Origin: Candidatus Kryptonium thompsonii | Lineage (GTDB): Bacteria > Bacteroidota > Ignavibacteria > Kryptoniales > Kryptoniaceae | Direction of reading: 5' to 3' | Assembly (NCBI GenBank): GCA_001442925.1 | Contig: LDXX01000007.1 | Location: 62,001 to 126,000 of the forward strand | DNA: 64,000 bases | Shown: positions 42,537 through 64,000 of the stretch, in pieces | Layout: each line of letters opens with the position of its first letter | Numbering within the stretch: the first letter of the stretch is position 1 | Translations under genes and position numbers: made by a program | The notes under the pieces: generated by a model | What the model saw: the letters and a program-made list of their open reading frames with translations, nothing else | Told to the model about the DNA's origin: nothing | Database searches by the model: none

Positions 42537-42615
42537 TGTGCTTAAGACTTGACATAGTCTCTTGATAAACTTGAACGATAGGATGGGGGGTAGAAGAAAA
42601 TTAATTTTTTCAGGT

Positions 42616-43446
42616 ATGCGTTTAGAGGTAAACTTAATTTCTTCTGGGGATAACCAATTAAGTTTAAATTACAACCATTTTATTGCGGGGTTAATTTACA
42701 GGGTTATAAGTTTGCACTCCGAGAGGTTTGCTCGGAGAATTCACTCTGGGGGATTTAAATTGAATGGGAAAGTATTTAAGATGTTTACATTTTCTAAAAT
42801 TTTCTATTTTAATGGGGCTCATGTTGAAGATTCGCATATTGTAATTCCAAGTAATTCTGAAATATCGTTTCTAATCTCGTCTCCGTATGAGGAATTTGTT
42901 AAAGATTTCGCCTTTGGTTTAACTAAGGCTGATAAGATATGGATTTCTGAACAGAAGAATCTTTATATCTTGAAGTCCGTTGAGGTTATATTTGAACCGA
43001 AGATATTTGATGGTGATCCAAAAGAGGTAATTGAGGTTGAAGGTGTCTTTATATCTCCCCTTGTTGTTTCAAAGGTTGATGCGCTTGGGAGAAGAATTTT
43101 TTTGGGTTGTTTTGATGCTGAGGTCCCGTATCTTATTCGTAAAAATTTGTTTGAGAAGTTTACCGCATTTTATAAATACGAGCCAGAGGATGAATTCGAT
43201 TTTGTTTTTAATCTCAATTACATCGTGAAAAAGCGGTGGAGAAAGCTTATAACTATAAAAGCGGGGAAGAAAGAAGAAACCAAAATTCCCTGTATGGTTG
43301 CTCCGTTTAAATTGAGGGGAACGCGCAGGATTATAAAATTTGCTTGGGATGTTGGGCTCGGGGAGAAAAATTCAATGGGTTTTGGGATGTGGGATATCGC
43401 AAAACCACGGAAGAAAAATAAAATTTTAGGGGAAAATGGATTTTGA
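42616..43446 (+). CDS. cas6: CRISPR RNA endonuclease Cas6
   Basis: Cas6 cuts the pre-crRNA within each repeat. The protein starts MRLEVNLISSGDNQLSLNYN, usual for Cas6, and ends with the Gly-rich RNA-binding loop DVGLGEKNSMGFGMWDI. A His-Ser-Gly pattern (HSERFARRIHSGGFKL) near residues 37-50 lies where the catalytic His is often found. This is the only cas6 in the window, so both CRISPR systems must use it. Starts at TTG 42562 or ATG 42583 are also in frame but add residues unlike the family. It overlaps cas10 by 11 bases. Confidence 0.88.
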   Translation: MRLEVNLISSGDNQLSLNYNHFIAGLIYRVISLHSERFARRIHSGGFKLNGKVFKMFTFSKIFYFNGAHVEDSHIVIPSNSEISFLISSPYEEFVKDFAFGLTKADKIWISEQKNLYILKSVEVIFEPKIFDGDPKEVIEVEGVFISPLVVSKVDALGRRIFLGCFDAEVPYLIRKNLFEKFTAFYKYEPEDEFDFVFNLNYIVKKRWRKLITIKAGKKEETKIPCMVAPFKLRGTRRIIKFAWDVGLGEKNSMGFGMWDIAKPRKKNKILGENGF

Positions 43447-45997: not shown

Positions 45998-46397
45998 AGA
46001 AAAATATTTTTTGAGAAAAACAAGTGATGACAAATGGGTAATTAAAGAAGAAATGGTGACAACTAAGGCTGAGAAATGGGCAGATGAGTTCATTGGTCGT
46101 GATCCTAGAAAACCTGAGTTGAAAAGTGCACAGTTGAGGAAGTTTTATAATGAAGTTAGAGCCCTTGCTGATAGGGTTGAGGTGGAGGGATTTGAAAAAG
46201 TCAAACCGCTAATTAAAATGTTAAAGGTGAAGGTTAATTATCAAAAGGGTCGAAAACTTGTTCCTGAAAAATTTGTTGATTTCATCACAGAGTGTGTTGA
46301 TCAGGTAAACGATAAGGAAGATTTTCTTGATGGTTTCGTTAAGCATTTTGAAGCTGTAGTTGGGTATTATTATGGCAAAGCTGAAAAATTTGATTAG
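45990..46397 (+). CDS. csm2: Csm2, small subunit of type III-A complex
   Basis: The 135-residue helical protein follows cas10 directly and precedes csm3. The segment KSAQLRKFYNEVRAL, then LKVKVNYQKGRKLVPEKFVDF, is the typical Csm2 core, which forms the inner filament along the crRNA-target duplex. An AGGAGGTC ribosome site lies inside the end of cas10. The length is normal for the family. Confidence 0.9.
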   Translation: MAEEKYFLRKTSDDKWVIKEEMVTTKAEKWADEFIGRDPRKPELKSAQLRKFYNEVRALADRVEVEGFEKVKPLIKMLKVKVNYQKGRKLVPEKFVDFITECVDQVNDKEDFLDGFVKHFEAVVGYYYGKAEKFD

Positions 46398-46428
46398 TTA
46401 AAAAACAAAATTAGGAGGTTTTTCAGCT

Positions 46429-47127
46429 ATGAAACTTGTCAAATATAAGGTTGTCACTGGAAAAATTAAGCTTTTAACAGGGCTACACATCGGGGGTAGC
46501 AGTGATATAATTGAAATCGGTGGAATGGATAATCCTGTAATAAAACATCCAGTAACCAACGAGCCTTACATCCCGGGCTCGTCGCTTAAGGGTAAAATAA
46601 GAAGTTTAATTGAGTTAGCTTATGGAAAAGTTAATAGTAATGGAGAAGTTCATAAGTGTTTAGATGTAAATTGTCCAGTTTGCAGGGTGTTTGGTAGCTC
46701 GCCAGATAATGAGGCGAGTGCACTAAAGCGGGGTCCAACGAGAGTTATATTCAGAGATGTATTTATTGATGAGGGGTACAAAAAGGAAATGGAGCGGAAA
46801 GGGCTTACAGTTTATGATATAATTGAAGAAAAGGCGGAAAATGTTTTAAATCGTATCACTGCAGAGGCGAAGCCGAGAAGACTTGAAAGAGTTATCCCGG
46901 GTGTAGAATTTCGCTTCGAGTTAGTATATCGTGTTTTTGATACTGGAGATGGAGGTCAAAAGGATGAAGAATTGTTTGAAAAGGTTATTCGAAAAGGTTT
47001 GAAGCTTCTTGAACTTGATTGTCTTGGTGGATATGGAAGCAGAGGGAGCGGGAAAATTAAGTTTGAGGGTGTTGAAATTAAAGATTATGCTCCCGAAAAT
47101 TTAAAAATAGAAGTTGAAGAGTCATGA
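46429..47127 (+). CDS. csm3: Csm3, backbone RNase of type III-A complex
   Basis: The 232-residue RAMP protein has LLTGLHIGGSSDIIEIGG followed by MDNPVIKHP; the Asp of MDNP (D34) corresponds to the catalytic Asp that cuts target RNA every six bases. It also has YIPGSSLKGKIRSL, a zinc-type CLDVNCPVCRVFG, and the Gly-rich GGYGSRGSGKIKF. Several copies line the crRNA. A strong AGGAGG ribosome site precedes the start. It overlaps csm4 by four bases. Confidence 0.95.
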   Translation: MKLVKYKVVTGKIKLLTGLHIGGSSDIIEIGGMDNPVIKHPVTNEPYIPGSSLKGKIRSLIELAYGKVNSNGEVHKCLDVNCPVCRVFGSSPDNEASALKRGPTRVIFRDVFIDEGYKKEMERKGLTVYDIIEEKAENVLNRITAEAKPRRLERVIPGVEFRFELVYRVFDTGDGGQKDEELFEKVIRKGLKLLELDCLGGYGSRGSGKIKFEGVEIKDYAPENLKIEVEES

Positions 47128-48068
47128 AAGCGTATAAGGTAAGTTTTGAGATAAAAAGCTCAACCATCACTCCATTTCAATCTGACACACTTTGGGGTTA
47201 TTTTGCGTGGGCGTGCTTTCACATATGGGGCGAGAAATTCGGCAGAGAATTTATCGATGCGAATAAAAATGGTAGTCCAACGCTTGTGTCGAATGCTTAT
47301 CCCGAGGGTTATTTACCTGTGCCGATAATTGAGATTAAGAGAACCGAAAAGATTGAGAAGGGGGAAATCTTTAAACAAGTGAAAAAAAGGAAGTTTATGA
47401 AGATTGAAAATTTTGAGAAAATAAAGGATGAATTAGAATGGAATAAACTTTTTGAAGTTTTGGTGAATGAAATCAAAGATGAAACAGAAAACAGAAAAGT
47501 TTGGGAAGTTGAAACACAGACTGTGATGAGGAATAAGATTAGTCGATTAACTTTTACAACTTCAGGTTTTGGTGAGCTGTTTGGAACTGAGGAGACATTT
47601 TATGGTTCTAATGTTAAATTATGGTTTGCGGTTAAAACCGACTTTCTGAGCAAGGAACAGATAGAAGCGATTTTGAAGTATATTGAACTATCGGGGTTTG
47701 GAGCGGATGCTTCTATAGGTAAGGGGAATTTGAAATTTACATCAATTGAGAATTTTAAACTTCCTGAAAGTGAAAATCCAAACGCTTTTATGACAATTTC
47801 AAATTTTATCCCGACAAAGGATGATTTAGATAATGTTGATGGTACAAACTTATGGTATAAGATTTTTACAAAGTATCCAAAAGTAGGCGGACATTTTGCC
47901 TTGACTGATCCGTTTAAGAAACCGCTCGTTTTTATGGAAGCGGGTTCTGTTTTTAAAGTAAAGACTCATAAAGATTTTTATGGTCAGATATTAAATGGTG
48001 TTCACTCGAATCCAGATATAGTTCAGTTTGCTTATGCTTTTCCTTTAAAAGTTAGAGTGGGGGTGTGA
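47124..48068 (+). CDS. csm4: Csm4, crRNA 5'-handle-binding subunit
   Basis: The 314-residue RAMP protein begins with YKVSFEIKSSTITPFQSDTLWGYFAWA, usual for Csm4/Cas5-like proteins, and has two ferredoxin-like halves with a Gly-rich segment GFGADASIGKGNLKF. It caps the complex by binding the 5' handle of the crRNA and Cas10. It overlaps csm3 by four bases and csm5 starts one base later. Confidence 0.92.
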   Translation: MKAYKVSFEIKSSTITPFQSDTLWGYFAWACFHIWGEKFGREFIDANKNGSPTLVSNAYPEGYLPVPIIEIKRTEKIEKGEIFKQVKKRKFMKIENFEKIKDELEWNKLFEVLVNEIKDETENRKVWEVETQTVMRNKISRLTFTTSGFGELFGTEETFYGSNVKLWFAVKTDFLSKEQIEAILKYIELSGFGADASIGKGNLKFTSIENFKLPESENPNAFMTISNFIPTKDDLDNVDGTNLWYKIFTKYPKVGGHFALTDPFKKPLVFMEAGSVFKVKTHKDFYGQILNGVHSNPDIVQFAYAFPLKVRVGV

Positions 48069-48069
48069 A

Positions 48070-49149
48070 ATGGCGGAGATTTATAAAGTTAAATATCAAA
48101 TCTTAACACCAATTCACATTGGCACTGGGGAGGATTTGACACCGTTTGATTATGTCATCGTGGATGATAATTTTCATAGGGTAAATGCAGATGAAATCAT
48201 TTCAAGTTTAAGCCAGGAACAACTCAATAAATTTTATGCGCTCATTGAACAAAATAACATAACAAGTTTAAGAGAGCTGATCGCTGGAAATTTTGATGAA
48301 AAAAGATTTTCGAAGTATAAGGTTAAAGTGACTAAGAATGTGGCTGAAAAATACCAGTGGAATTTAAGAAATGTAAACAACCAACTTTTGATATCGCCAT
48401 TTGTAAGGGTGGATGGGGATTTTAAACCTTATATCCCTGGTAGTTCAATTAAAGGTGCAATAAGAACCGCTATTATCGATCGGGTTGCTAAAGACAATCC
48501 TGAAATGATCAAGCGGATTACAAGTAATGAAAAGGAGTACAAATCAAACACTTGGGAACACAAGTTGCTCAAAGCTGTAAGAGTTGATCAAAAGAAAAAG
48601 GAAGAGAAAGTTGACATTTCAAAAGACCCATTTAGAGCGTTAAAGATCTCGGATGTTTTTGTTTCAAATGAGGTGATGAGGATAGGTGAGGTTTTAAACG
48701 CAAGAGTTGATGAGCGGAGAAATAGACTTGCAACGGTCGGAATTCAAATGATAAAAGAGGTCATTGCAGGTGAGATTATCACTGGCGGATCAGTTGAGTT
48801 TGAAGGCGAAATAATAATTGATGATTTCCTGCCCAAAGTTGAAGGTGTGTCGATGCCTTTAACAAAAGATTTTATAATTCAGTCGTGCAATCAGTTTTAT
48901 AATGAAGAGTTTAAACGAGAGCAAGAGTTTTACGAATTTGCAACCGATATGAATGAGATTATCGAGAAAATGAGAAGTTTGTTGAGGGTGAAGCAGAACG
49001 AGTGTGTTGTTAGAGTGGGACGCTTTTCAGGTGTGTATGCGGTCACCATAAATGCAAGAAAACCGCATAATAAAAAGTGGGGAACAACGAGGAATTTGTT
49101 TGAAGGGAGATATCCAATGGGGTGGATGAAGATAAAGTTTGTAGGTTAA
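48070..49149 (+). CDS. csm5: Csm5, crRNA 3'-end subunit
   Basis: The 359-residue RAMP protein has the paired motifs YQILTPIHIGTGEDLTPFDYV (in short TPIHIGTGE) and YIPGSSIKGAIRTAI, and ends with a Gly-rich tail (GRYPMGWMKIKF). It sits at the 3' end of the crRNA and helps recruit trimming nucleases. It completes the standard csm1-csm5 set. The next gene starts 23 bases downstream behind a GGGAGAG ribosome site. Confidence 0.92.
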   Translation: MAEIYKVKYQILTPIHIGTGEDLTPFDYVIVDDNFHRVNADEIISSLSQEQLNKFYALIEQNNITSLRELIAGNFDEKRFSKYKVKVTKNVAEKYQWNLRNVNNQLLISPFVRVDGDFKPYIPGSSIKGAIRTAIIDRVAKDNPEMIKRITSNEKEYKSNTWEHKLLKAVRVDQKKKEEKVDISKDPFRALKISDVFVSNEVMRIGEVLNARVDERRNRLATVGIQMIKEVIAGEIITGGSVEFEGEIIIDDFLPKVEGVSMPLTKDFIIQSCNQFYNEEFKREQEFYEFATDMNEIIEKMRSLLRVKQNECVVRVGRFSGVYAVTINARKPHNKKWGTTRNLFEGRYPMGWMKIKFVG

Positions 49150-49172: not shown

Positions 49173-50006
49173 ATGAAAGAATTTCACATAATTAATGTCG
49201 GCAATTCGCTTCTTTCGAATTTCCAAAGAAATAACCCTGAAATAAGCAAAATTCAACAGTCCGACAACGATTTTTGGAAAAAGGCGATCGATGATGTGAA
49301 TTTTATGGAGGAGATTTTTCGTTTTCTTGAGTCGAACCCCAAAGAAAGATCAGCCGAGATGAATACTTTTCTAAGGGTGGTTGAAGGTAAGAATCCGAAG
49401 GAGATTGAGGTTTATTTATCTGGCACAAATACTTATTCAAATGAGATATGCGTTAGGACAATTCAAAGATATTTAAGGGATAAAAATTTTATCGTTTATG
49501 ATAATCCCGAATTTCCAGGATATTTTCTTGAGGTTAACAATTATGATGAGAAATACGCGAAAGATGAATTCGTTAGAGGCATTGCCGAGATGGTTGATAG
49601 ATTTATTTATCTTGCGCTTAAAAAGAAGGAAGAGGGATATGAAGTATTTATGAATCCAACTGGTGGTTTTAAGGCACATGTGATTGCTTGTGCGCTTGCT
49701 GGATTTCTTACGGGATGTAAAGTTTATTACATGAACGAAGAGTTTAGGAATGTTATTTTTATGCCTGAGTTATTTTATCTGCCGAAAGGTAGAGAAGTTA
49801 AATTGCTCGAAATTTTGTCAGATAGAAGACCAAGGAGTGGGGCAGAATATAAAAGTATAGCGGATAAATTTGTAAATGAGCTCGAGCGCTTGCGAGTTTA
49901 TGGACTTGTTGATGTTGAAACGGATGATGATGGAAAGCCTTTTAGGGTTAAAATAACTGCCCGTGGGATCTTGTTTTTGAATACATCTAAAGAAGTTCAA
50001 AGATAG
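49173..50006 (+). CDS. CARF-winged-helix protein (Cas_APE2256/Crn1-like)
   Basis: The 277-residue protein starts with FHIINVGNSLLSNFQRN, the Rossmann-like CARF opening (NVGNSLL), and has the ligand-loop signature FMNPTGGFKAHVIACALA. The C-terminal 70 residues look like a winged helix (RSGAEYKSIADKFVNELERL, then a beta wing GKPFRVKITARG). No HEPN RxxxxH motif is present, so it is not a Csm6/Csx1 RNase. Relatives in this family include ring nucleases that destroy cyclic oligoadenylate; a DNA-binding regulator is the other possibility. It lies between csm5 and the CARF-sigma-54 activator in one operon. Confidence 0.8.
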   Translation: MKEFHIINVGNSLLSNFQRNNPEISKIQQSDNDFWKKAIDDVNFMEEIFRFLESNPKERSAEMNTFLRVVEGKNPKEIEVYLSGTNTYSNEICVRTIQRYLRDKNFIVYDNPEFPGYFLEVNNYDEKYAKDEFVRGIAEMVDRFIYLALKKKEEGYEVFMNPTGGFKAHVIACALAGFLTGCKVYYMNEEFRNVIFMPELFYLPKGREVKLLEILSDRRPRSGAEYKSIADKFVNELERLRVYGLVDVETDDDGKPFRVKITARGILFLNTSKEVQR

Positions 50007-50019
50007 GAGGTAAAAGCAT

Positions 50020-51738
50020 ATGTCTAAGCAGAAAAATATATTAGTTGCGGTGCTTGGTTCAACACCGCAGATTTTAACTGAAACACTCTGGTGTTTGAAA
50101 AAGGAAAAAGGAATAGATATTGATGAGGTTTTTGTTATAACAACGCAGTTTGGCAAAAAGTTGATATGCGAGGGCAACCCGAGTATAGGTTTACCACCAC
50201 TTTTAAATGGTGTCTTTGAAAAGTTCTGCAAAGAATTTGGGCTGAGGACAAAATTTAACGAGGGGAATATAAAAGTTATAAGGGATGAAAAGGGAATTGA
50301 ACTTGAGGACATAAGAGATGACAGACAAAATGAAATAGCTGCTGATTTCATAACTAACGAAATACGAAGGATTGTAAGTAGAAAAAATGCGGTATTACAT
50401 TGTTCCGTTGCTGGTGGAAGGAAGACGATGTCGGTTTACGCAGCGCTTGCAATGACGCTTGTTGGTAGAAAGCAAGATAAACTTTACCATGTGCTTGTTT
50501 CACCGCCCGAGATCGAAGGGAATCCACAATTTTTCTATAAACCAGAAATTCCAATTGAAATTGAACTTAACAGTGGAAAGAAAATCTCAACAGATAAAAT
50601 AGAGATAACACTTGCGGAGATACCTTTTCTCAGACTTGGGGAGAAATATCTGAATATTTTTCCTGAAAAAATTTCATACACAGAACTTGTTGAACGAATT
50701 CAGAATTATGTTAATTTTGAAAAACCAGCCATAAGTGGTGATAGGGGTGAAGCAATTGAGATAATAGGTGAGAATAAAAAATTTAAAGAAGCCCTTAAGA
50801 TATTGGAAAAGTATGCAAAAAATGACAAGATCAAAGTTGTTTTGCTTGTCGGTGAAAGTGGAACTGGAAAGGAATTATTCGCGAATTATTTTCACCGAAT
50901 TGGGAGCAGAAGCGATAAAAAATATCTTGCGATCAATTGTGCCACTATTCCTGAAACCCTTATTGAAAGTGAGCTTTTTGGTCATGTTAAAGGTGCATTC
51001 ACAGGTGCATCAAAAGATAAGAAGGGAATTTTTGAGGAATGCCATGGAGGAGTTCTATTTCTTGACGAAATCAATAAAACGAATCCAGCTTTTCAGGAAA
51101 AACTTCTTAGAGTTATTGAGTATGGTGAATTTATGCGTGTTGGAGGTTTGGAAATGAAAAAGGTGGATGTAAGAATAATAATTGGGCTTAATCAGGAACC
51201 AAGTGAGTGGCTTAAAAGTGGAAATGTTTTACCGGACTTTTATAACAGAATAGTAGGACATCAAGTCAGAATTCCACCTTTGCGGGACAGAAAAGATGAT
51301 ATACCCATCCTTGTAAATCACTTTGTAAATAAATATTCCACTCTTTATGAGAAAAATATTAAGGGTGTATCAGATGAGATAATGCATGTGTTCTTGGATG
51401 ATTATGATTGGAGTTTTGGAAATGTGCGTGAACTTGAGAGAGTTATAGATGCCATGATCGCGAGAGCGGATGATAATGAACAAATTTTAACAAATTTACC
51501 TGAATATTTTGAGTTTAAAATAAAAGCGCAGGAACAAAATATAAAGGGGATAATCGAAGAAATTTCAAGGGGTAAAAATTTAACCCTTGCTGAACTTAAC
51601 AGAGAATATATTAAGTTTAAGCTTCATGAAAATGGTTACAATGTTAGCAAAACAGCAAAAGACCTAGGCCTAAAGAGGAGCACACTTCAAGGCAAGATGA
51701 AAAAGCTTGGGGTAGAGGTGCCCAAATATCGGCGCTGA
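50020..51738 (+). CDS. CARF (Cas_NE0113)-sigma-54 activator AAA+-Fis fusion
   Basis: This 572-residue protein joins three parts. Residues 1-185 are a CARF domain of the Cas_NE0113 type (ILVAVLGSTPQILTETLW, HCSVAGGRKTMSVYAAL, HVLVSPPEI). Residues 245-490 are a sigma-54 activator AAA+ domain: Walker A GESGTGKE at 278-285, intact sigma-54 contact loop GAFTGA at 325-330, Walker B GGVLFLDEIN, Arg finger in PPLRDRKDDI. Residues 525-572 are a Fis-type helix-turn-helix (NVSKTAKDLGLKRSTLQGKM). The layout parallels RtcR, which also has an N-terminal CARF. It should bind cyclic oligoadenylate and open sigma-54 promoters. An AGGAGG site precedes it; two dyad sites lie at its 3' end. Confidence 0.92.
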   Translation: MSKQKNILVAVLGSTPQILTETLWCLKKEKGIDIDEVFVITTQFGKKLICEGNPSIGLPPLLNGVFEKFCKEFGLRTKFNEGNIKVIRDEKGIELEDIRDDRQNEIAADFITNEIRRIVSRKNAVLHCSVAGGRKTMSVYAALAMTLVGRKQDKLYHVLVSPPEIEGNPQFFYKPEIPIEIELNSGKKISTDKIEITLAEIPFLRLGEKYLNIFPEKISYTELVERIQNYVNFEKPAISGDRGEAIEIIGENKKFKEALKILEKYAKNDKIKVVLLVGESGTGKELFANYFHRIGSRSDKKYLAINCATIPETLIESELFGHVKGAFTGASKDKKGIFEECHGGVLFLDEINKTNPAFQEKLLRVIEYGEFMRVGGLEMKKVDVRIIIGLNQEPSEWLKSGNVLPDFYNRIVGHQVRIPPLRDRKDDIPILVNHFVNKYSTLYEKNIKGVSDEIMHVFLDDYDWSFGNVRELERVIDAMIARADDNEQILTNLPEYFEFKIKAQEQNIKGIIEEISRGKNLTLAELNREYIKFKLHENGYNVSKTAKDLGLKRSTLQGKMKKLGVEVPKYRR

Positions 51739-52122: not shown

Positions 52123-52458
52123 ATGAAATTTACAGCGCACGCAATTAAAAGAGTTAATATGAGAAGGATAAATAAAGAAATGATTGATATGGCGCTTAAA
52201 TATGGCATCAGGGTCTACAATGCAGGGGCAAAATTTGTTTTCGTCAGAAAGAAAGATATACCAGATGATTTACCAGCGAGAATTGCTGAAAAGATAGAAG
52301 GTCTTGTTCTGGTTTTAAATCCAGTTGACAATACAGTTATCACAGTTTACAAAAATCGTAAAGAGTTAAAGAGGATTAAAAGAAAGGTAAAAAGATATGA
52401 TAAGGAAAGCGGTGGAAAGTTCCCACGAAGGATTTTCAAGATTTCGGAGCTATTCTAA
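52123..52458 (+). CDS. DUF4258 family protein
   Basis: The 111-residue basic protein opens with KFTAHAIKRVNMRRINKEMI, the DUF4258 pattern (His, Arg-rich helix, RxI), then FVFVRKKDIPDDLP and VDNTVITVYKNRKEL. DUF4258 proteins are small alpha-beta proteins of unknown activity, sometimes found with toxin or defence genes and compared to RelE-like or RNase folds. The tail is very Lys/Arg-rich, which suits nucleic acid binding. It lies 28 bases after the membrane peptide and 30 before cas8. Confidence 0.75.
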   Translation: MKFTAHAIKRVNMRRINKEMIDMALKYGIRVYNAGAKFVFVRKKDIPDDLPARIAEKIEGLVLVLNPVDNTVITVYKNRKELKRIKRKVKRYDKESGGKFPRRIFKISELF

Positions 52459-52488: not shown

Positions 52489-53793
52489 ATGGCTCAAATT
52501 TACATCATAACTGGGAATCCATTCGTTGATGCTGGAATTTATGTTATATCCGAGTTAGCCAGGAAAGAAATCGAAGATGTAGATGTCGACGATTTGAGAA
52601 ATTTGTCCGGCAAAATCATCGATGTTTATTCAAATGATAAATGGGGTAGGATGCTTGATTTAATTTTCACAAAGAATCATCCGATGAGACATCCAAGTGT
52701 AGGGGGCAGGGAATACTATGAAAAATTTTTGTTGGGGCTTCTATCTGATTTGAGCCCGCTTTCGGATTCGGGTGCTTGTGTTTCTTGTGGCAAGAGGAAT
52801 AAAAGCAGAGTGGAAAGGAAATTTGGGATCGGGAAAGAACTTGTCCCACTGACGGGTTCTGGTGATTTTGTTAATTTCTTTCCGATGGCTTCGCTTGGAC
52901 TTGAGATGTGCTCAGCTTGTTTGCTTGCGATTCAGTTTATGCCGATTTTTCTTCATTATTGTGCTGGAAAGCTCTTGCTTCTTCATTCAAATTCAGGTAA
53001 GGTGATGAGATACTGGGCAAAGATTGGGGTTAGCAATTTTGATGCGCAAATCGTGTTTGGCAATTTTACAGGTTGTTATTCAAATAATATCAATGATCCT
53101 GTTAGCTCATTTTTTAAAAGCATTGAGGATGTAGTAATGAAATATGAAGAGAATTGGATTGAAGAGGATGCGTTTATAAGGTTCTACTATTTCGTCAATC
53201 CGGGACAAAGTCCATATGTTGAAATTTTTGATGTCCCTTCGCCCGTTTTCAGATTTATCGCTTATGTTAAGCAGGCGGATGCTTATGCAGAATGGAAAGA
53301 AATGGTGGGTAGAGCCTATGATGGGCGCAAAAACAAAGTTTATTTAAGACTGTTAAGCGGGGAAAGCATAGTTAGATACTTCTTTAGGAATAAGGGCGAA
53401 AGAAGGGTTTTCGGGAATTGGAATCTTTTAAAATTCTATTTAAAGGAGGTGAAAGGGATGAACGAGGAAAGAATCAACGCAATAAGGGAATTTTCGGACA
53501 GGATAGCAACGGTAATTAAAAGTCTTGGTTCGATTAAGCGACTTAATCAGCTTGAGACGGCTGAAAATTACGCGCAATTCAGAAATGTGTTAAGATTTTT
53601 AATTAAAGACAGTCTGAGGGCTAAGTTTGAAAAGCCGATTTTGGAATTTGATGAATATGTTAAGTTGATTTTGCCCGAAGGGGCGACGGGATGGAATGAG
53701 GTCAGAGATTTGATATTGTTTAGAATCTACGAAGTTTTACACAGTTGGCTTATTGAGATAGAAGGTGAAAAGGAAGCGAGCGAACAAATTTAA
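52489..53793 (+). CDS. cas8: Cas8 (Cst1, CXXC-CXXC type), type I-B large subunit
   Basis: The 434-residue protein has two zinc pairs, CVSC at 97-100 and CSAC at 141-144, the mark of the CXXC-CXXC (Cst1/Cas8a1) group found in type I-B (Tneap) loci. The N-terminus (IYIITGNPFVDAGIYVI) is typical. It should recognise the PAM and recruit Cas3 as the large Cascade subunit. An ATG-internal AAAGGAGGTGAAAGG sequence near 53446 could start a separate small subunit from the ATG at 53459, as seen for some Cas8 genes; that is inference. Confidence 0.85.
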   Translation: MAQIYIITGNPFVDAGIYVISELARKEIEDVDVDDLRNLSGKIIDVYSNDKWGRMLDLIFTKNHPMRHPSVGGREYYEKFLLGLLSDLSPLSDSGACVSCGKRNKSRVERKFGIGKELVPLTGSGDFVNFFPMASLGLEMCSACLLAIQFMPIFLHYCAGKLLLLHSNSGKVMRYWAKIGVSNFDAQIVFGNFTGCYSNNINDPVSSFFKSIEDVVMKYEENWIEEDAFIRFYYFVNPGQSPYVEIFDVPSPVFRFIAYVKQADAYAEWKEMVGRAYDGRKNKVYLRLLSGESIVRYFFRNKGERRVFGNWNLLKFYLKEVKGMNEERINAIREFSDRIATVIKSLGSIKRLNQLETAENYAQFRNVLRFLIKDSLRAKFEKPILEFDEYVKLILPEGATGWNEVRDLILFRIYEVLHSWLIEIEGEKEASEQI

Positions 53794-53828: not shown

Positions 53829-54860
53829 ATGCTTATGGCAACAGGATATATTTTAGTTGATGCTCCGCATTCGGCATTAAACAATGCTGGAACTGATATT
53901 AGTGAAAGGGCGGAAAACATTGTGCGGGTTAAGGCGATAAGAAGAGGTGGGGATATTTATCCCTATGTTTCGGCGCAGGCGTGGAGATTTTGGTGGAGGA
54001 TGACATTGCAAGAGATGTTTGAGTGGGAACTTTCACCGGTTGAAAGAACTGAAAAAATCGCTTTCACTAAAGCGAACCCATTCAAATATCCAGATGATGA
54101 TATCTTTGGATATATGAGGGCTGTGAAAGAAGGCAAAACTGATAAAACAGTCACGCGAGTCTCGCCGTTGAAGTGCTCCCCGCTTGTCTCTGTGTTAAGT
54201 GTTGAACCAGTTCAAGACTATGGAGTTATGGCAAGGCAAGAAGGCGATCCAGTTCCATATGAGCATGAATTTTATTCAACAATCTTACACGGTGTTTTTT
54301 CGCTTGATCTAACAAGGGTCGGGGTTTTTTACTTGAAGAGTCAAGCGGGATTTAGAAATATTGATGAAGATATAATTGAAAGAGACGAGGAATTAAAAGA
54401 AAGTCTTAATGAAGTGGGAGCGAGAAGGATCAATGATGTCTATGTGCTTCCACCGGATGTCAGAGCCAAAAGAGCAAAGGAGACAATCCTTGCGCTTGCT
54501 TATTTGTTCGGCGGAGCTAAGCAGACGCAACATTTGACAGATGTCGCGCCTAAATTTGTTATCTTGGCAATTGTAAGGGGCGGGAATCACATATTTATGA
54601 ATCTTGCTCATGAGAAAAATGGGAAAGTTGAGTTTAATTATCAAGGGTTGAAGCAAACATTGATTGACTACAGCGATGTGATTTTATCCGATGTTTATGT
54701 TGGAATTATGCCTGGATTTTTAGATGGGTTGGATGGTAAATTCAGGGCTGAATTTGGTGAATTTAGATTTGGTGAAAATAGGGGCGTTATAATTTCAAGC
54801 CCGAAGGAGGCTATTGAAAGATTTGCTGGGCTTGTTAATGATGTTGTCACCAATATGTGA
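53829..54860 (+). CDS. cas7: Cas7 (Cst2/DevR family), type I-B backbone
   Basis: The 343-residue protein begins ATGYILVDAPHSALNNAG and has RAENIVRVKAIRRGGDIYPYVSAQAWRFWWR (in short YPYVSAQAWRFWWR), the Cst2/DevR signature of Cas7 in type I-B. It has FGGAKQTQHLTDVAPKF toward the C-terminus. Six or so copies coat the crRNA. A GGGGGTGAT ribosome site precedes it. A strong hairpin lies between it and cas5. Confidence 0.92.
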   Translation: MLMATGYILVDAPHSALNNAGTDISERAENIVRVKAIRRGGDIYPYVSAQAWRFWWRMTLQEMFEWELSPVERTEKIAFTKANPFKYPDDDIFGYMRAVKEGKTDKTVTRVSPLKCSPLVSVLSVEPVQDYGVMARQEGDPVPYEHEFYSTILHGVFSLDLTRVGVFYLKSQAGFRNIDEDIIERDEELKESLNEVGARRINDVYVLPPDVRAKRAKETILALAYLFGGAKQTQHLTDVAPKFVILAIVRGGNHIFMNLAHEKNGKVEFNYQGLKQTLIDYSDVILSDVYVGIMPGFLDGLDGKFRAEFGEFRFGENRGVIISSPKEAIERFAGLVNDVVTNM

Positions 54861-54916: not shown

Positions 54917-55555
54917 ATGGAAGTACTCAGGGTGAAAATAACTGGAATTATGGCTTCCTTTAGAGATCCAAAGTTTGTATCTGGTGTTCAACCAACACTT
55001 GAGGTTCCACCGCCGAGCACTGTTCTCGGTTTGATGTCGTCCGCCTGTGGAAAAATTCTTAGTCCAAATGATGTCGAATTCGGTTATGTGTTTTTATACA
55101 AAGATAAAGGGAAAGATGTTGAACTAATTTACGAGTTGACATTAAAGACAAAATACAGTGCTAAGTCAAATGTTGTGATAAGAGAGTTTCTAACTTTTCC
55201 TGAACTTTACATTTACATTACGGATTTGGGATTTGAAAAGTATTTTCGTTTTCCGATGTTTCCATTACTTCTTGGTAGAACCCAAGAGCTTGCAAGAGTT
55301 GAAGAAGTGAAAAGGGTTGAACTTAAGCAGACCAAGCCAGTTAGATTTGGACATACCATTGTTCCATTTGATTTCAAAGGCGTTGGGGGAGTTTTAATAG
55401 CATTGCCACTTTACTTTGAATATAATCCCTTTGAACCGAGGATAGGGCAAAGAATACAACCGTTCATTCTCGTTAAAAGTTTTATAAACTATTCACATCA
55501 ACCAATGTTTTATGATGAAGAAAAAAACTGGGGGATATACTTTTATGGGCAATAA
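54917..55555 (+). CDS. cas5: Cas5, type I-B crRNA-handle subunit
   Basis: The 212-residue protein has the Cas5 N-terminal RAMP signature VKITGIMASFRDPKFVSGVQ and VPPPSTVLGLMSSACGK, with later YITDLGFEKYFRFPMFPLLLGRTQELA (in short FPLLLGRTQELA). It binds the 5' handle of the crRNA in Cascade. It follows cas7 after 56 bases and a hairpin. The next gene starts inside its last four codons. Confidence 0.9.
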   Translation: MEVLRVKITGIMASFRDPKFVSGVQPTLEVPPPSTVLGLMSSACGKILSPNDVEFGYVFLYKDKGKDVELIYELTLKTKYSAKSNVVIREFLTFPELYIYITDLGFEKYFRFPMFPLLLGRTQELARVEEVKRVELKQTKPVRFGHTIVPFDFKGVGGVLIALPLYFEYNPFEPRIGQRIQPFILVKSFINYSHQPMFYDEEKNWGIYFYGQ

Positions 55556-56009
55556 TCTAAAACTTATACTTCTAATTTTAACTTTACTTGTAGCATTTCA
55601 AACCAAAGCGCTTTCGCAGATTCCAATTGAAGTAGTTGATTACTCAGAGGATATGGTTGGTCAAATGTTGGTTTACCGTGTTAAGGAGAAATTCAGGGAA
55701 TCTAATATATTTTATCTCCCTTTAGTCCCAAAGGGATTCAGGTTTAGAGTACAGATCAGCACAATGGATAGGTTCAAGGGCGATGATTCACGCAGTAATC
55801 TTTCAACGATGTATTCTGTGATTTGGCTTTTATATGATGATGAGAAATTTATATTTCCAATCTATCTTGATCATACCCTTGGTTATTCTGGAAGGGATGT
55901 CGTTGGGAGCACAGCAGAGGAGATTGTTGCGAGAACTGATAAAATCATCACTCAATTTGGTGAATTATTAAAGATGTTGGATAAGCTTTTAAAACCAGAA
56001 GGTAAATAA
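55545..56009 (+). CDS. Secreted protein of unknown function inside the cas operon
   Basis: The 154-residue protein begins with a clear signal peptide (NLKLILLILTLLVAF, cleavage near KALSQ), then a mixed alpha-beta domain with no family I recognise and a C-terminal helix (QFGELLKMLDKLLKPEG). It overlaps cas5 by 11 bases and cas3 starts one base after its stop, so it is translationally tied to both. A longer frame from 55512 lies inside cas5 and hides the signal sequence. An exported protein within a Cascade operon is unexpected. Confidence 0.7.
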   Translation: MGNNLKLILLILTLLVAFQTKALSQIPIEVVDYSEDMVGQMLVYRVKEKFRESNIFYLPLVPKGFRFRVQISTMDRFKGDDSRSNLSTMYSVIWLLYDDEKFIFPIYLDHTLGYSGRDVVGSTAEEIVARTDKIITQFGELLKMLDKLLKPEGK

Positions 56010-56010
56010 A

Positions 56011-58245
56011 ATGAGATGGAAGATACTTGCAAAGGCTGAGCCAGAAAAAACACTTTACGAGCATATACTTGATGTTTTGAAAGTGTTAAGCGAAATGATG
56101 AAAATTTATTCAGATGTCCCAAGGCTTTGCGGCGAAGCAGATTTTTGGGATTATGTTTTTTATGCTCTTTTCTTCCACGATTTTGGGAAGTCGGCAATTG
56201 GGTTTCAGGAGGCTTTAAGAACGGGGAGGAGATGGGGATATAGGCACGAAATAATCTCCGCAGGTTTTGTTTCATGTCTTGAGTATGAGGATAGAATTAA
56301 AAGATTGATCGCGCTTGGCATCGCAAGTCATCATAAGGAACTTGATGAGCTTAAGAAAGGATATTCAACAATAAGCCAAAATTCACCCGGATACGAAAGG
56401 TATATAAACGCGCTGAGGGAGGTTGGTGAAAATTTTGATGAGCTTGTTGAGATGATGAAGTTGATACCAGAGTTGAGCCAAGAATTTATCGGGAAGAGAT
56501 TGATAAATTTTAATTTGCCAAGCTCAGTTGACGATCTTGTTGATGTTTTTAGGTTTGCGATAAAACCGTATGAAGATATCAAAGATTCTGAAATTGATAG
56601 GTTGACATGGTTGAGACTTGTTTTTATGCGTGGTTTTGTTCTCGGTTGTGATTATCTGGCATCATCTAACAATTTTGAGATCCCGAGGTTGGGAGCGGAG
56701 ATTTCAAGGTTTATCAAATTTGAGAAGTTAAACGATATACAGTTGAAGTTACGACGAGCTGATGAGGTGAGGGGAAAGGATATAATTTTAGTTGCTCCAA
56801 CTGGATACGGGAAAACCGAGGCATCTTTGTTCTGGGTGGAAAGCAATCAAGATGATGTGATGGCGAAGAGAGTTTTTTATATTTTGCCTTACACGGCGAG
56901 CATAAACGATATGTTTAAAAGGTTCGTGCAGTACTTTGGCGGAGAGCTTGTGGGGATCAAACATTACAGAGCTGGATATTTTCTTTATAAATTTTTCAGA
57001 GATAGAGAATATACCCCGGAAGAAGCAAAGAAAATTGCAAGTGCTTTTGTTGATTTAAGCAAGAAGATCTACAAGCAGTTTAAGCTCATAACTTATCTTC
57101 AACTTTTGAAGGGAATATTTGGAGTTGATGGTTTTGAGATGGAACTTTCAGAAATGGCGGGTGGATTGGTGGTGCTTGATGAAGTTCACTCATATAATGC
57201 AAAGATCATAGCCCTGTTGGTTGAAGCGTTGAAAATTTTAAAAAATCAATTTGGGGTTAAGGTTTTGATAATGTCCGCAACCTTTCCGAAGTTTTTGCGT
57301 GAAATTTTTGAAACGGAAGTTGGAATTAAAGAATTAGTAAATGTCGATGAAAGTGAATTGCGAAAGATCTCAAGACATAGGATCAACCTTATAGATGATA
57401 ACATTTTAAATGGCGTTGATTTAATTAAAAATTTCCTAGTAAAAGGTTTGAGAGTTCTTGTCGTTTGTAATACGGTGAAAAGGGCGCAGGATGTTTACAC
57501 TGTTTTAAGTGAATACGCAAGAGGAAAAAGCAAACTCGTCCATTCAAGATTTGCACTAGTAGATAGGGAGAGGATTGAGGGAACTTTAAAAGATGAAAAT
57601 GTTCAACTCCTTGTTGGGACGCAAGCGATTGAAGTATCGCTTGATATTGATTTTGATGTACTTTTCACAGATGTAGCTCCGGTTGACAGATTAATTCAAA
57701 GATTTGGACGAGTAAATAGAAGAGGAAGGATGGACTGTGCCGATGTTTATATTTTCAATGAGTATCTTGATGAGGACTTAAAAATTTACGAGAAGGAAAT
57801 ACTTGAAAGAACGATAGCGGGGCTTGGGAAGGTAAAGCGGATAAATGAGTTTGATATTTTAAATCTTATAGAGGATGTTTACAGTGAGGGGTTTACAGAG
57901 AAACAAAAGAAAATTTTTGAGGAAACAAAGGAAAGTTTCTTGAGATTGAGAAGTAGCATTGTCCCCATGTTTAAAAATCCGATCAATGAAGAGGATTTTA
58001 ATAGTTTAACTGGCTTTGTCGAAGTTGTCCCATCGTATTATGAAGATGATTATTTGAGCGCATATGAAGAGGGGAATTACTTTGATACGGTTAAGTTTTA
58101 TCTTCCGCTTGCTTATTCTCAATTTTTCAAGTTGGCGAAAATGGGACAGATTTACAAGCGTCAACCCACAGTTTTTTGTCGCGCTAAGTATGATAAGGAA
58201 CTTGGTCTTTTGGTTGATGAATTTGAAACAAACATACTTGAATAG
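56011..58245 (+). CDS. cas3: Cas3, HD nuclease-helicase
   Basis: The 744-residue protein has an N-terminal HD domain (FFHDFGKSA, H56-D57; RHEIISAGF; ASHHKEL) and a superfamily 2 helicase with Walker A APTGYGKTE (262-270), DEVH box at 390-393, SAT motif MSATFP, and motif VI QRFGRVNRRGR. It unwinds and degrades target DNA marked by Cascade. Nuclease and helicase are fused, as in standard type I. cas4 follows directly at the stop codon. Confidence 0.96.
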   Translation: MRWKILAKAEPEKTLYEHILDVLKVLSEMMKIYSDVPRLCGEADFWDYVFYALFFHDFGKSAIGFQEALRTGRRWGYRHEIISAGFVSCLEYEDRIKRLIALGIASHHKELDELKKGYSTISQNSPGYERYINALREVGENFDELVEMMKLIPELSQEFIGKRLINFNLPSSVDDLVDVFRFAIKPYEDIKDSEIDRLTWLRLVFMRGFVLGCDYLASSNNFEIPRLGAEISRFIKFEKLNDIQLKLRRADEVRGKDIILVAPTGYGKTEASLFWVESNQDDVMAKRVFYILPYTASINDMFKRFVQYFGGELVGIKHYRAGYFLYKFFRDREYTPEEAKKIASAFVDLSKKIYKQFKLITYLQLLKGIFGVDGFEMELSEMAGGLVVLDEVHSYNAKIIALLVEALKILKNQFGVKVLIMSATFPKFLREIFETEVGIKELVNVDESELRKISRHRINLIDDNILNGVDLIKNFLVKGLRVLVVCNTVKRAQDVYTVLSEYARGKSKLVHSRFALVDRERIEGTLKDENVQLLVGTQAIEVSLDIDFDVLFTDVAPVDRLIQRFGRVNRRGRMDCADVYIFNEYLDEDLKIYEKEILERTIAGLGKVKRINEFDILNLIEDVYSEGFTEKQKKIFEETKESFLRLRSSIVPMFKNPINEEDFNSLTGFVEVVPSYYEDDYLSAYEEGNYFDTVKFYLPLAYSQFFKLAKMGQIYKRQPTVFCRAKYDKELGLLVDEFETNILE

Positions 58246-58749
58246 ATGATATTCGAGAATCCGCGCATCACAGGGGTGATGGTGAATTATTATTTTCATT
58301 GTAAACGTCAGCTTTGGCTATTTGCAAATCAGATCACTATGGAGCACAGTTCCGAACTTGTTTTGATAGGTAAAATTTTAAGCGACGCATTTTACAAAAA
58401 CAGAGATAGGGATATTAATATCGACAATATGATCATGATCGATTGGTTTGATTTTGATGGTGGTATAGTTCATGAGGTGAAAAAATCAGATTCTTTTGAA
58501 GAGGGTCATATATGGCAGGTGAAGTATTATATTTACTACCTTAAGAAGAAGGGGATGAATGCGAAGGGGAAGATAAATTATCCAAAGTTAAGAAGAGAGA
58601 TTTATGTTGAGCTTGGGGTTGGGGATGAGGAGAAAATTGTAGAGTTGTTAAATGAAATAGTTGAAATTGTCAGAGGTGAGATACCCCCGGTTAAAACTAA
58701 TCGAGTTGAGTGCAAAGGATGCAGTTATTTTGAATTTTGTTGGTCTTAA
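58246..58749 (+). CDS. cas4: Cas4 nuclease
   Basis: The 167-residue protein has an N-terminal Cys (YYFHCKRQLWLF), the RecB-type motifs GKILSDAFY, EVKKSDSFEEGHIWQVKYYIYYL (in short EVKKSD and WQVKYYI), and a C-terminal Cys cluster CKGCSYFEFCW, the iron-sulphur ligands. It trims prespacers and selects the PAM with Cas1-Cas2. The start follows the cas3 stop without a gap. Confidence 0.92.
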   Translation: MIFENPRITGVMVNYYFHCKRQLWLFANQITMEHSSELVLIGKILSDAFYKNRDRDINIDNMIMIDWFDFDGGIVHEVKKSDSFEEGHIWQVKYYIYYLKKKGMNAKGKINYPKLRREIYVELGVGDEEKIVELLNEIVEIVRGEIPPVKTNRVECKGCSYFEFCWS

Positions 58750-58771
58750 AAACAAAAGTTTTTCATCTTTT

Positions 58772-59842
58772 ATGCCGAAGCCATATTACATATTTTCTTC
58801 TGGGATTTTGCGAAGGAAGGATAATACTCTTTACTTTGAACCACTTGAGGAAGGTAATTTCGAAGAGGATGAAGATATACTTTGTTTCGTTGGTTATCCT
58901 GAAAGAGATTGTGAAGATCGTTCGGCAAAGCGCAAGCCGATCCCAGTCGAGGATATTGATTCAATTTATATTTTTGGTGAGATGACATTTAATGTCAAGT
59001 TTTTTAATTTCCTATCTCAAAACAATATCATTTTGCATATTTTTAATCATTATGGTTTTTATTCCGGGAGTTTTTATCCTCGCGAGTTCTTGAATTCAGG
59101 GAGACTACTTATCAGGCAAGTTGAACATTATCTTTTTGATGAGTTGAGACTTTTTCTTGCGAGAAAAATTGTTGACGGTGCGAGTTATAATATGTTAAGA
59201 AATTTGAAAAATTATCTTTCTAATGACGAGCTTGAAATTTACATTGAAGCGATCGAGGTTGAAAGAGTTAAGATAGAATCGTGTGGGGATATTCATGAAC
59301 TTATGGCGTGCGAGGGTCATATAAGAAGTGCATATTATATGGCTTGGCCTCATATAGTGAACGATGAGTTCTTTTATTTTGACAAGAGGACTAAGCAACC
59401 GCCCGGGAACGCGATAAACGCTCTTATATCTTTTGGGAATTCGATGCTTTACACGGTTGTGCTTGGTGAGATTTATAAAACTTATCTTAATCCTACGATA
59501 AGTTATTTACATGAGCCGTCTGATAGGAGATTTTCATTAGCCCTTGATCTTGCTGAAATTTTTAAGCCAGTAATTGTTGACAGGTTAATTTTCAGGATGA
59601 TAAATCGAGGTCAGCTCAGCAGGGAACATTTTGTTGGCGAGTTAAATTTTTGTTATCTTTCCGAGGAAGGTAGGAAGATATTTGTGAGGGAATTTAATGA
59701 ATTTCTTGAGTCAACTGTGAAGTATAAAAAGTTTAACAGAAATGTGTCGTATAGGGGATTGATTCGGCTTGAGTGTTATAGGTTGATAAAGCATCTTTTG
59801 GGGGACGAGGTATATGAACCACTTAAAGTTTGGTGGTATTAA
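58772..59842 (+). CDS. cas1: Cas1 integrase (type I-B)
   Basis: The 356-residue protein starts MPKPYYIFSSGILRRKDNTLYF and has the catalytic Glu in ACEGHIRSAYYMAW, the His in SYLHEPSDRRFSLALD, and the Asp in LALDLAEIFKP. It integrates new spacers at the leader. The open frame extends upstream to 58661 inside cas4, but that stretch does not match Cas1; the ATG at 58772 does. Cas2 follows. Confidence 0.95.
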   Translation: MPKPYYIFSSGILRRKDNTLYFEPLEEGNFEEDEDILCFVGYPERDCEDRSAKRKPIPVEDIDSIYIFGEMTFNVKFFNFLSQNNIILHIFNHYGFYSGSFYPREFLNSGRLLIRQVEHYLFDELRLFLARKIVDGASYNMLRNLKNYLSNDELEIYIEAIEVERVKIESCGDIHELMACEGHIRSAYYMAWPHIVNDEFFYFDKRTKQPPGNAINALISFGNSMLYTVVLGEIYKTYLNPTISYLHEPSDRRFSLALDLAEIFKPVIVDRLIFRMINRGQLSREHFVGELNFCYLSEEGRKIFVREFNEFLESTVKYKKFNRNVSYRGLIRLECYRLIKHLLGDEVYEPLKVWWY

Positions 59843-59863: not shown

Positions 59864-60124
59864 GTGTATTATATAATTGTTTATGATGTTGAGGAGAAGC
59901 GGGTTAATAAAGTTTGCAAATTATTGCGTAGATATTTACACTGGGTTCAAAATTCTGTTTTTGAGGGCGAGTTAAGTGAGGGGAAATTGGCTGAGTTGAA
60001 GTTCAAACTTTCTCAGATAATAGATCCTGAGGTTGATTCTGTGATAATTTACACTTTGTGGGGTAAGTGGAAGGGCAGGGAGGTTATAGGGTTAAATAAG
60101 AATCCAGTTGATAGTTTAATTTAG
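59864..60124 (+). CDS. cas2: Cas2
   Basis: The 86-residue protein begins with a GTG and YYIIVYDVEEKRVNKVCKLL, the Cas2 beta1 strand and Asp, and has the QNSVFEGELSEGKL and IIYTLWGKWKGREVIGL segments. It is the structural partner of Cas1. It lies 21 bases after cas1 and is followed by a strong terminator, so it closes the operon. Confidence 0.94.
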   Translation: MYYIIVYDVEEKRVNKVCKLLRRYLHWVQNSVFEGELSEGKLAELKFKLSQIIDPEVDSVIIYTLWGKWKGREVIGLNKNPVDSLI

Positions 60125-60135
60125 TTTTAGCTATG

Positions 60136-60170
60136 GGGTTGACCTTGGGTCAACCCTTTTTTATTTTTTT
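60136..60170 (+). terminator. Rho-independent terminator after cas2
   Basis: A perfect nine-base-pair stem (60136-60144 with 60148-60156) with a TTG loop is followed by a long T-rich run. It separates the cas operon from the array leader, so the array needs its own promoter. Confidence 0.92.
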
Positions 60171-60409
60171 ATAATATTCGTTATTACATTTCCGAGAATC
60201 GCGTGAAGAAGTTAGCACATTAATTTTTGAATAATTTATTGATTTACAATCAAAAAGTCGCACTCTGACATAAACTAAGACATTTTGTCAGGGAGGTTGG
60301 CGGAAAAATTTGGGGTATGGGTTAACATTTAGGCTCTTGACTTTTGGTGGAAAATTTATTATATTATAGTGTCTGAATTTTGATAGGTTTAAGTTTTATT
60401 TTATGGTGG
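60171..60409 (+). promoter_or_regulatory. CRISPR leader with array promoter
   Basis: The AT-rich region between the cas2 terminator and the first repeat contains no gene. TTGACT (60337-60342), a 17-base spacer and TATATT (60360-60365) form a promoter that closely matches the one at 42473, including most spacer bases. Transcription would start near 60372, about 38 bases before the first repeat. An inverted repeat CTGACA/TGTCAG (60265-60270 and 60286-60291) lies upstream. Confidence 0.8.
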
Positions 60410-63400
60410 GTTTGAATCGAACCTGTGAGGGATTGAAACATGATAACTTCTCTGAAGCACCGTGTTTAAATCTTCTTGTTTGAATCGAACCTGTGAGGGA
60501 TTGAAACAAACTGGGACCTGCATAATGTTCGCATTTATTTATGTTTGAATCGAACCTGTGAGGGATTGAAACTAAATTTTTGGATACCCCCCCTCCATTT
60601 GAGAGAGTAGTTTGAATCGAACCTGTGAGGGATTGAAACACTATGTTCTTTTGAAACTCAAAATCTAAAAGAGAAAGTTTGAATCGAACCTGTGAGGGAT
60701 TGAAACTAAATAATTTTGATGAGATGTTCAGGGAGCAATTTAGTTTGAATCGAACCTGTGAGGGATTGAAACGAAACTAATTGTTCGCGCTTAATGGGGT
60801 CTACTTCCGTTTGAATCGAACCTGTGAGGGATTGAAACATATCTCCTCTGCCCACCAACTTGATTAAAACACGGGGTTTGAATCGAACCTGTGAGGGATT
60901 GAAACATTGTTTGTGTTAAAGTTTTATCAATCCTTTCTTTTGTTTGAATCGAACCTGTGAGGGATTGAAACTTCCAGACAACCGCACCTTTTCATCAAGG
61001 CGTTTAGTTTGAATCGAACCTGTGAGGGATTGAAACGTTTATAGGGATTATCAAAAACCCTCGCTGGGATATGTTTGAATCGAACCTGTGAGGGATTGAA
61101 ACTTAAAACCCTTTTATGTCTTCGCAAGAAATAATAAACTGTTTGAATCGAACCTGTGAGGGATTGAAACATAAAAAAGATTATTGACCCGTTTTTAAAT
61201 TCAACATGTTTGAATCGAACCTGTGAGGGATTGAAACTTGAGGGCTACATCATAGCCCTGCGACCCAATAATAGTGTTTGAATCGAACCTGTGAGGGATT
61301 GAAACCAAGAAATAATAAACTTATTTGTACAACTTACGTGTTTGAATCGAACCTGTGAGGGATTGAAACACGATTATAAGCCAAAAGTGCTAAATCGGGA
61401 TTTTGAGTTTGAATCGAACCTGTGAGGGATTGAAACAAGTATTTGTCGCAGGGTCATACGCCTCATTCGTGGAGTTTGAATCGAACCTGTGAGGGATTGA
61501 AACATAAATTATTTTATCCCAATATCTTCTTTCAATTTCAGTTTGAATCGAACCTGTGAGGGATTGAAACTTTACGCCGAATGACCTCAAAATTCTCTGA
61601 AGTTCTTGTTTGAATCGAACCTGTGAGGGATTGAAACACGGGCATTGATTCAAATGGGGAAAGATCCCGCAAATTAGTTTGAATCGAACCTGTGAGGGAT
61701 TGAAACTCGCTTGCAATAGCGGGGATTAACAAATCTTCTATGTTTGAATCGAACCTGTGAGGGATTGAAACTCCAATAATGTTTAGCCCCCCACTCTTCT
61801 TCTCGTCCTGTTTGAATCGAACCTGTGAGGGATTGAAACGAAATTAATTGTTCACGCTTAATTGGGTCTACTTCCAGTTTGAATCGAACCTGTGAGGGAT
61901 TGAAACGTAAAAACAATTGCTTCCCCAAATTCTTCTTTTGCTTGTTTGAATCGAACCTGTGAGGGATTGAAACCCTATCATGCCCTAAAATATATCCGCC
62001 ACTTGTCGTTCTGTTTGAATCGAACCTGTGAGGGATTGAAACCGGGGCAAAATCAGCAATTGGAGCGAATTTTAACACGTTTGAATCGAACCTGTGAGGG
62101 ATTGAAACTGAAGTCGTTTGACAGCATTTAAAATCTCCTCATCAATGTTTGAATCGAACCTGTGAGGGATTGAAACTTGGGAATGAAATAAAAAAGTGTA
62201 TTGCTCACACCGTTTGAATCGAACCTGTGAGGGATTGAAACAAAAATATTCTAACTTCTTCACCCCTTACAAGTTTTGTTTGAATCGAACCTGTGAGGGA
62301 TTGAAACTTTCATTTATAATCTCATCATTCTTAAATGGCTTTTGTTTGAATCGAACCTGTGAGGGATTGAAACGGATAAACCGCCCGTGGATGTGTGGGA
62401 GCAAATTATGTTTGAATCGAACCTGTGAGGGATTGAAACTTATTTGTTTTTGAAAGGGACAATTTACAAGCATTAGTTTGAATCGAACCTGTGAGGGATT
62501 GAAACACCTTTGCGATGACCAATTTATCCTTTACCCTCGCAAGTTTGAATCGAACCTGTGAGGGATTGAAACTTTAAGATTGCTTCTCAATGGGAGCAAA
62601 ATTTATTTTGTTTGAATCGAACCTGTGAGGGATTGAAACAATTTGAAGAATTGCAAAATGAATATGAGCAACTCGTTTGAATCGAACCTGTGAGGGATTG
62701 AAACGCTGTTAAGTAGGGACGCCCCCCATAATTTACAAAGTTTGAATCGAACCTGTGAGGGATTGAAACAATTTATTTGCCTCCTGCTCAGCTTTCCGAT
62801 TTATGTTTGAATCGAACCTGTGAGGGATTGAAACTGGGGAAATTAAATCCGAAAGAAACGAAAGAAATCCTGTTTGAATCGAACCTGTGAGGGATTGAAA
62901 CATTTAGACTTTTGGGGAACAAATAAAACGACATTGTTTGAATCGAACCTGTGAGGGATTGAAACATAAGTTGATTGATTTATTTGACAATAACATTGAA
63001 TAGTTTGAATCGAACCTGTGAGGGATTGAAACTATAGTTTGGAACATAACTACCCGCTTTATTGAGAGGTTTGAATCGAACCTGTGAGGGATTGAAACTT
63101 AGCATTAATATAATTTTCCAGTGTAATTCTGGAAGTTTGAATCGAACCTGTGAGGGATTGAAACTTTCGGAAATAATTTCCTTTAATTGCTGATCAATTT
63201 CGTTTGAATCGAACCTGTGAGGGATTGAAACTTTTTAAATGATTTAAAACTTGTTCTTTTAAAAATTCGTTTGAATCGAACCTGTGAGGGATTGAAACTG
63301 ACAAATAAAACAAATAGAATTATATTAGTAGTGAAGTTTGAATCGAACCTGTGAGGGATTGAAACGCTGTTGTTTGGTGAGTTCTTCTTGTTCGCGCCCC

Positions 63401-64000
63401 GCGTTTGAATCGAACCTGTGAGGGATTGAAACAAAAATTTTTATGGCTATGGGATAAAATATCTGCTTGGTTTGAATCGAACCTGTGAGGGATTGAAACT
63501 TAAAAGATTTTTAAGAAAATCTCTTAATTTTTTCGTTTGAATCGAACCTGTGAGGGATTGAAACAGATTTTTTACTCCAATGCCAAAGGGAGCAACAAAG
63601 TTTGAATCGAACCTGTGAGGGATTGAAACATGGGAAATTTATGGATTATTTAAGTTTTGATTTTTGTTTGAATCGAACCTGTGAGGGATTGAAACAATGA
63701 ATTTTCAATTGTTTGTGTTAAAGTTTTATCAGTTTGAATCGAACCTGTGAGGGATTGAAACTAAATTAATTTTACAATATGCTCCGGTAAAAGCCTATGT
63801 TTGAATCGAACCTGTGAGGGATTGAAACAAGCTATTCACCCCAATGGCGCCCGGTTTTACCTAAGTTTGAATCGAACCTGTGAGGGATTGAAACTTACAA
63901 ACCGCAAATTTCGGCGATATCCTCCTCATTAGTTTGAATCGAACCTGTGAGGGATTGAAACTCCTGCTACGTAAAAATACTTTCTCATTTTGCCTCCGTT
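60410..64000 (+). CRISPR. CRISPR array, 54 full repeats seen, continues past window
   Basis: Fifty-four copies of a 30-bp repeat (begins GTTTGAATCG, ends GAGGGATTGAAAC) start at 60410 and the last begins at 63932. All copies read are identical. The 53 complete spacers are 34-39 bases. After the last repeat come 36 bases and then GTT at the window edge, the first bases of the repeat, so the array continues. The ATTGAAAC end, the leader at 60171-60409 and the operon direction all give plus-strand transcription, with newest spacers near 60440. Repeats of this end type are common in type I-B and type III systems. Confidence 0.99.

Follow-up and report, generated by a model that had tools for sequence, protein, structure and literature searches.

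Overlapping spacers point to a TC-centered 5′ PAM for a Cas8b1 type I-B CRISPR array in Candidatus Kryptonium thompsonii

The analyzed stretch of DNA (the window) is a 64,000 nt piece of the 2.59-Mb genome of Candidatus Kryptonium thompsonii. It carries a CRISPR-Cas locus, all on the + strand, in the order cas6, III-A effectors, two CARF proteins, cas8b1-cas7-cas5-cas3-cas4-cas1-cas2 and array. The Cas6b-like cas6 (42562–43446) probably serves as shared crRNA processing gene. It is followed by cas10/csm1, csm2, csm3, csm4, and csm5 (43436–49149; TIGR02578 gives 692 bits for Cas10/Csm1), and with Cas10/Csm1 and Csm2–Csm5 all present this part was classified as type III-A. The next segment (49173–51738) encodes a Csm6/CARF7-like CARF protein and a CARF-AAA-HTH regulator. 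The latter (50020–51738, +), located between the III-A and the I-B genes and conserved in the congeners, combines a CARF domain with a sigma-54-type AAA ATPase and an HTH domain in one protein (RtcR/PspF-like), which suggests transcription under cyclic-oligoadenylate control.

The I-B part consists of cas8b1/cst1, encoding the large subunit of Cascade (52489–53793; TIGR01908 148 bits at a cut-off of 19.4, and Cas8b according to PADLOC), cas7 (cst2/devR, 53829–54860), cas5b (cas5t, 54917–55555), cas3 (56011–58245), cas4 (58246–58749), cas1b (58661–59842), and cas2 (59864–60124). As the family match of cas1b begins at residue 38–42, its true start is probably downstream of 58661. The presence of Cas8b1/Cst1, of Cas7, Cas5b, and Cas3 in one operon, and of Cas4, Cas1b, and Cas2 adjoining the array identifies the system as the Cas8b1 variant of type I-B. 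Cas8b1 is the expected PAM reader, and Cas4 the expected selector or trimmer of PAM-bearing prespacers. A single repeat type and a single adaptation module lie beside both effector sets, which is the layout of shared I-B/III loci. An ORF of 165 aa with a hydrophobic N-terminal stretch is located between cas5 and cas3 (55512–56009, +); it has no Pfam match, and G003 and G004 carry it at the corresponding position with 56–59% identity. Directly before cas8b1 lies a DUF4258-like ORF of 111 aa (52123–52458, +), which scores below the Pfam cut-off and is 58–86% identical in the congeners.

The leader extends from cas2 to the first repeat (60125–60409, +) and gives the direction of the array. The window part of the array (60410–63961, +) is made up of 54 identical 30-nt repeats, GTTTGAATCGAACCTGTGAGGGATTGAAAC, and spacers of 34–39 nt, and the full array of 96 repeats runs past the window to the contig end. 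As the array reads rightwards from the cas2-side leader and the repeats end in ATTGAAAC, the usual 5′ handle (Vink et al., 2021; PMC8482600), we infer that the crRNAs have the sequence of the + strand and that the PAM side of a type I system is 5′ of the spacer. Inside the array, the bases beside the spacers are AAC, the end of the repeat. Four degenerate repeats of this type form a small isolated array on another contig of the genome (L014, about 8077–8424; G000:C2).

A first-pass annotation of this DNA had numbered the spacers and described two overlapping pairs, each with one spacer containing the bases 5′ of the other's protospacer. Its numbering and coordinates were exact, and both pairs were recovered with the flanks it had reported. 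Spacers 8 (60906–60941, +) and 50 (63696–63731, +) have 24 nt in common, ATTGTTTGTGTTAAAGTTTTATCA, and spacer 50 holds TTCA (63704–63707) at the PAM position of the spacer 8 protospacer. Spacers 11 (61103–61140, +) and 14 (61306–61339, +) have 16 nt in common, CAAGAAATAATAAACT, and here TTCG (61121–61124), at the PAM position of the spacer 14 protospacer, is read out of spacer 11. First-order Markov shuffles of the same 54 spacers predict 0.01 pairs of at least 16 nt and 0.8 pairs of at least 12 nt. A third related pair had been missed: spacers 6 (60773–60808, +) and 22 (61840–61876, +) are identical at 33 of 36 positions, and since they start at the same base no flank can be read from them. 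The pair 60440/64820, matching at 12 of 13 positions, was at chance level and was dropped. The array beyond the window contributed four further readings, one of them for spacer 27 (62177–62211, +) from the variant spacer C7:127085, which overlaps it at 26 of 31 positions. The full array thus gives six informative readings, TTCG and TTCA from the two pairs above and TTCT (spacer 27), TTCA, ATCT, and TTTG from beyond the window, with TC at -3/-2 in five and TTC at -4 to -2 in four of the six.

As two readings are weak proof, the method was widened to the full array and to four congeners carrying the same repeat type. Including the window's genome this yielded 1109 spacers, 1098 of them distinct; 786 came from G004 alone, in which all 802 repeats were recovered. 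An all-against-all ungapped comparison of the 1098 distinct spacers found 548 overlapping pairs, compared with 2.0 in Markov null sets. After spacers with the same start had been collapsed, 223 distinct protospacer starts remained, each with at least four upstream bases; about 95% of these readings stem from the single congener G004, and those within one cluster share viral sequence and are therefore not fully independent. Every flank was taken from another spacer and none from a virus. We carry the G004 motif over to the window on the basis of the homology of the orthologs (Cas8b 63%, Cas7 76%, and Cas1 71% identical) and of the TC in five of six readings from the window's own genome. The readings outside G004 have TC in six of seven cases. 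Two observations on array history were made in passing (L019 366–860; L019 2757–3022 and L021 6704–6969). In the G001 array a run of four spacers occurs twice, and six spacers, five of them consecutive, are common to G001 and G003 despite their being separate species.

The viruses themselves were sought in several collections. Eight queries against IMG/VR found no protospacer; one was a degenerate DNA pattern for spacers 6/22, one an alignment of the proteins of the most-targeted gene, and six were degenerate peptides derived from overlapping spacers. An extended alignment of the most-targeted gene had no match in GTDB genome contigs, nor did its consensus in phages or in PHROGs. The window's array used as query against phage and plasmid collections gave no credible match, and in the seven genomes of the genus the spacers of the window's genome matched only the arrays themselves, apart from weak chance matches. 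We conclude that the viruses are absent from these collections as searched, which for IMG/VR means as probed by eight patterns and does not amount to proof of absence as such. In G004 (802 repeats; arrays L022–L034, L039, and L040), 73 spacers target one small, highly variable gene. Its product of about 60 aa contains ...VQNGKYVFLEWQGAIPGDV... and has no relative in IMG/VR, GTDB genome contigs, or phages.

Among the 223 starts, C is found at -2 in 61% (0.81 bits) compared with a background of 15%, T at -3 in 61%, and C at -1 in only 9%. The dinucleotide TC at -3/-2 occurs in 39% of the flanks vs 4.6% of the background (p about 1e-56). When only the exact overlaps were used (n = 60), TC was seen in 47% vs 4%, and C at -2 in 70%. 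A pyrimidine stands at -3 in 80% and at -2 in 88% of the 223 starts, as is typical of the 5′ pyrimidine PAM of Cas8b1 type I-B systems, and YYD flanks make up 68% vs 28% in the background. About 30% of the flanks are non-YYD, exact overlaps included. Slippage by one base was considered as the source of the non-TC flanks and rejected, as TC is not notably raised in the neighboring registers. Positions -5 to -8 showed no enrichment (almost zero information), and the downstream flanks gave no signal. The idea that the array reveals its PAM in the absence of any virus sequence was thus borne out by the enrichment of flanks read from spacer-spacer overlaps.

The motif had originally been read as TTCN, with TTC at -4 to -2 expected to dominate. 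A true four-base motif of this kind would agree with both pairs of the window and with the four TTC readings among the six of its genome, and TTCA is indeed the commonest tetramer among the flanks, as TTC is the commonest trinucleotide. However, TTC accounts for only 22–32% of the flanks (22% vs 2.2% background at n = 223), and TCN and YYD dominate instead. Position -4 carries about 0.04–0.08 bits compared with 0.8–1.1 bits at -2, and ATC, CTC, and GTC flanks are common. T precedes TC in 50 of 87 readings, and in 19 of 28 when only exact overlaps are counted, but also in 34 of 72 and 12 of 25 background TCs, respectively. T at -4 is therefore not required and mostly reflects the T-richness of the targets, with a mild preference at most. 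In addition, the I-B PAMs characterized so far are 3 nt long (PMC13199841). We consider a four-base TTCN motif very improbable. What stands of the original reading is a motif 5′ of the protospacer and of I-B type; the information lies at -3 and -2, C is shunned at -1, and T at -4 is nearly uninformative. The motif is TCN, with TCD preferred and YYD tolerated, and not strict TTCN, two forms that the two window overlaps by themselves cannot tell apart. The flanks might also be ascribed to chance or to the composition of AT-rich targets with no PAM involved, given that the targets are T-rich and that the two initial examples were chosen after the fact. The enrichment already refutes this: the share of C at -2 climbs from 15% to 61–70%, C becomes scarcer at -1, and the effect is confined to -3 to -1. 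The same overlap method was also applied, with strict repeat sets, to the second repeat type of the genus (GTGAGAATTGAACCAGTGTGGAATTTAAAC in G004, with a close variant in the window's own genome), for which there are 115 spacers. It gave CC at -3/-2 in seven of nine readings, all nine from the G004 array, although the targets of the two repeat types overlap. The overlap method thus returns a separate motif for each system, and the TC preference cannot be put down to the targets. In the window's genome, the second repeat type belongs to a second I-B-like locus (L087, about 5890–16588; G000:C1), which has an array of 35 repeats and its own cas1, cas4, cas3, and large subunit.

From the spacer overlaps, the enriched flanks, the genes present, and the different motif of the second repeat type, we conclude that the array was very probably loaded by the neighboring I-B adaptation genes from prespacers beside a TC-centered PAM. 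Cas4, Cas1, and Cas2 would pick prespacers just 3′ of this PAM (TCD preferred, YYD tolerated), the PAM strand being the one with the spacer's own sequence. Repeated sampling of the same viruses would then produce overlapping spacers, so that one spacer holds the PAM of another. Cas8b1-Cascade would use the motif to distinguish targets from the array itself, which has the repeat's AAC at these positions, and the I-B system of the window is predicted to carry out PAM-dependent DNA interference. The spacers may also guide the neighboring III-A complex. Alternatively, the motif could be only a footprint of acquisition by Cas4/Cas1/Cas2, with defense consisting mostly of PAM-independent RNA targeting by III-A. 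The complete III-A set adjoining the array and the roughly 30% of non-YYD flanks would fit such a footprint, as would the orientation of the spacers. In clusters in which only one strand is open, so that the coding frame can be resolved, antisense spacers outnumber sense ones by 170 to 44 (79% antisense), a ratio above the 108:53 (67%) given by TC opportunity (p 8e-5); this strand test treats related spacers as independent, one cluster alone having 73 members. Against a mere footprint stand the intact cas8b1/7/5/3 operon and the conservation of cas8b in G002, G003, and G004, and we regard it as rather unlikely. The preferred flank (T)TCD mismatches the repeat tag AAAC at each position from -4 to -1. 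This mismatch and the excess of antisense spacers are suggestive of spacer content being selected by both the III-A complex and the I-B Cascade, a possibility that we put forward tentatively.

With loading beside a TC-centered PAM as the preferred reading, the biology is ordinary for a I-B system with Cas8b1, and the motif is what would be expected of the known type I-B family. What makes the result valuable is how strongly the PAM is supported by a reading free of virus sequence. The PAM is well supported and belongs to a Cas8b1 I-B system with no viruses in the collections searched, and the result shows that in deep arrays spacer-spacer overlaps alone suffice for reading a PAM and also separate two I-B PAMs in one genus. 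The closest measured PAM is that of Thermotoga maritima I-B1 (Cas8b1), for which YYD was accepted and AAC rejected in vitro with purified components (PMC13199841). The TC-centered motif fits this biochemical YYD, and both systems have Cas8b1, a repeat ending in AAC, pyrimidines at -3/-2, and a disfavored C at -1, whereas the motif of the window comes from spacer overlaps and has C over T at -2. The type I-B1 PAM of Hungateiclostridium thermocellum is TTN/TNA (Table 1 in PMC13199841); Cas8b1, the AAC repeat end, and T at -3 are again shared, but that system favors T at -2 where the window system favors C. For ‘Ca. Kryptonia’, combined I-B/III-A loci with arrays, very large spacer sets, and viral targets have been described (PMC4737851), and the supplement of that study gives a manual PAM prediction for the I-B spacers; we take the resemblance of those loci to the window's, where I-B and III-A genes likewise accompany an array, as a lead. 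Vink et al. (2021; PMC8482600) described arrays shared by I-B and type III systems with a PAM and a coding-strand bias, and list TCN, TCA, and CCN among the I-B PAMs. Their arrays resemble ours in that a single array and adaptation module accompany both effectors and in having a PAM, and their bias towards mRNA-pairing spacers agrees with the suggestive antisense excess seen here; they were analyzed through database protospacers instead of spacer-spacer overlaps. In the Sulfolobales CRISPRome (PMC6858448), overlapping spacers were tiled into viral contigs and PAMs were obtained from protospacer flanks. Spacer overlap thus served there, too, as virus-free information, but for assembly and not for PAM reading.
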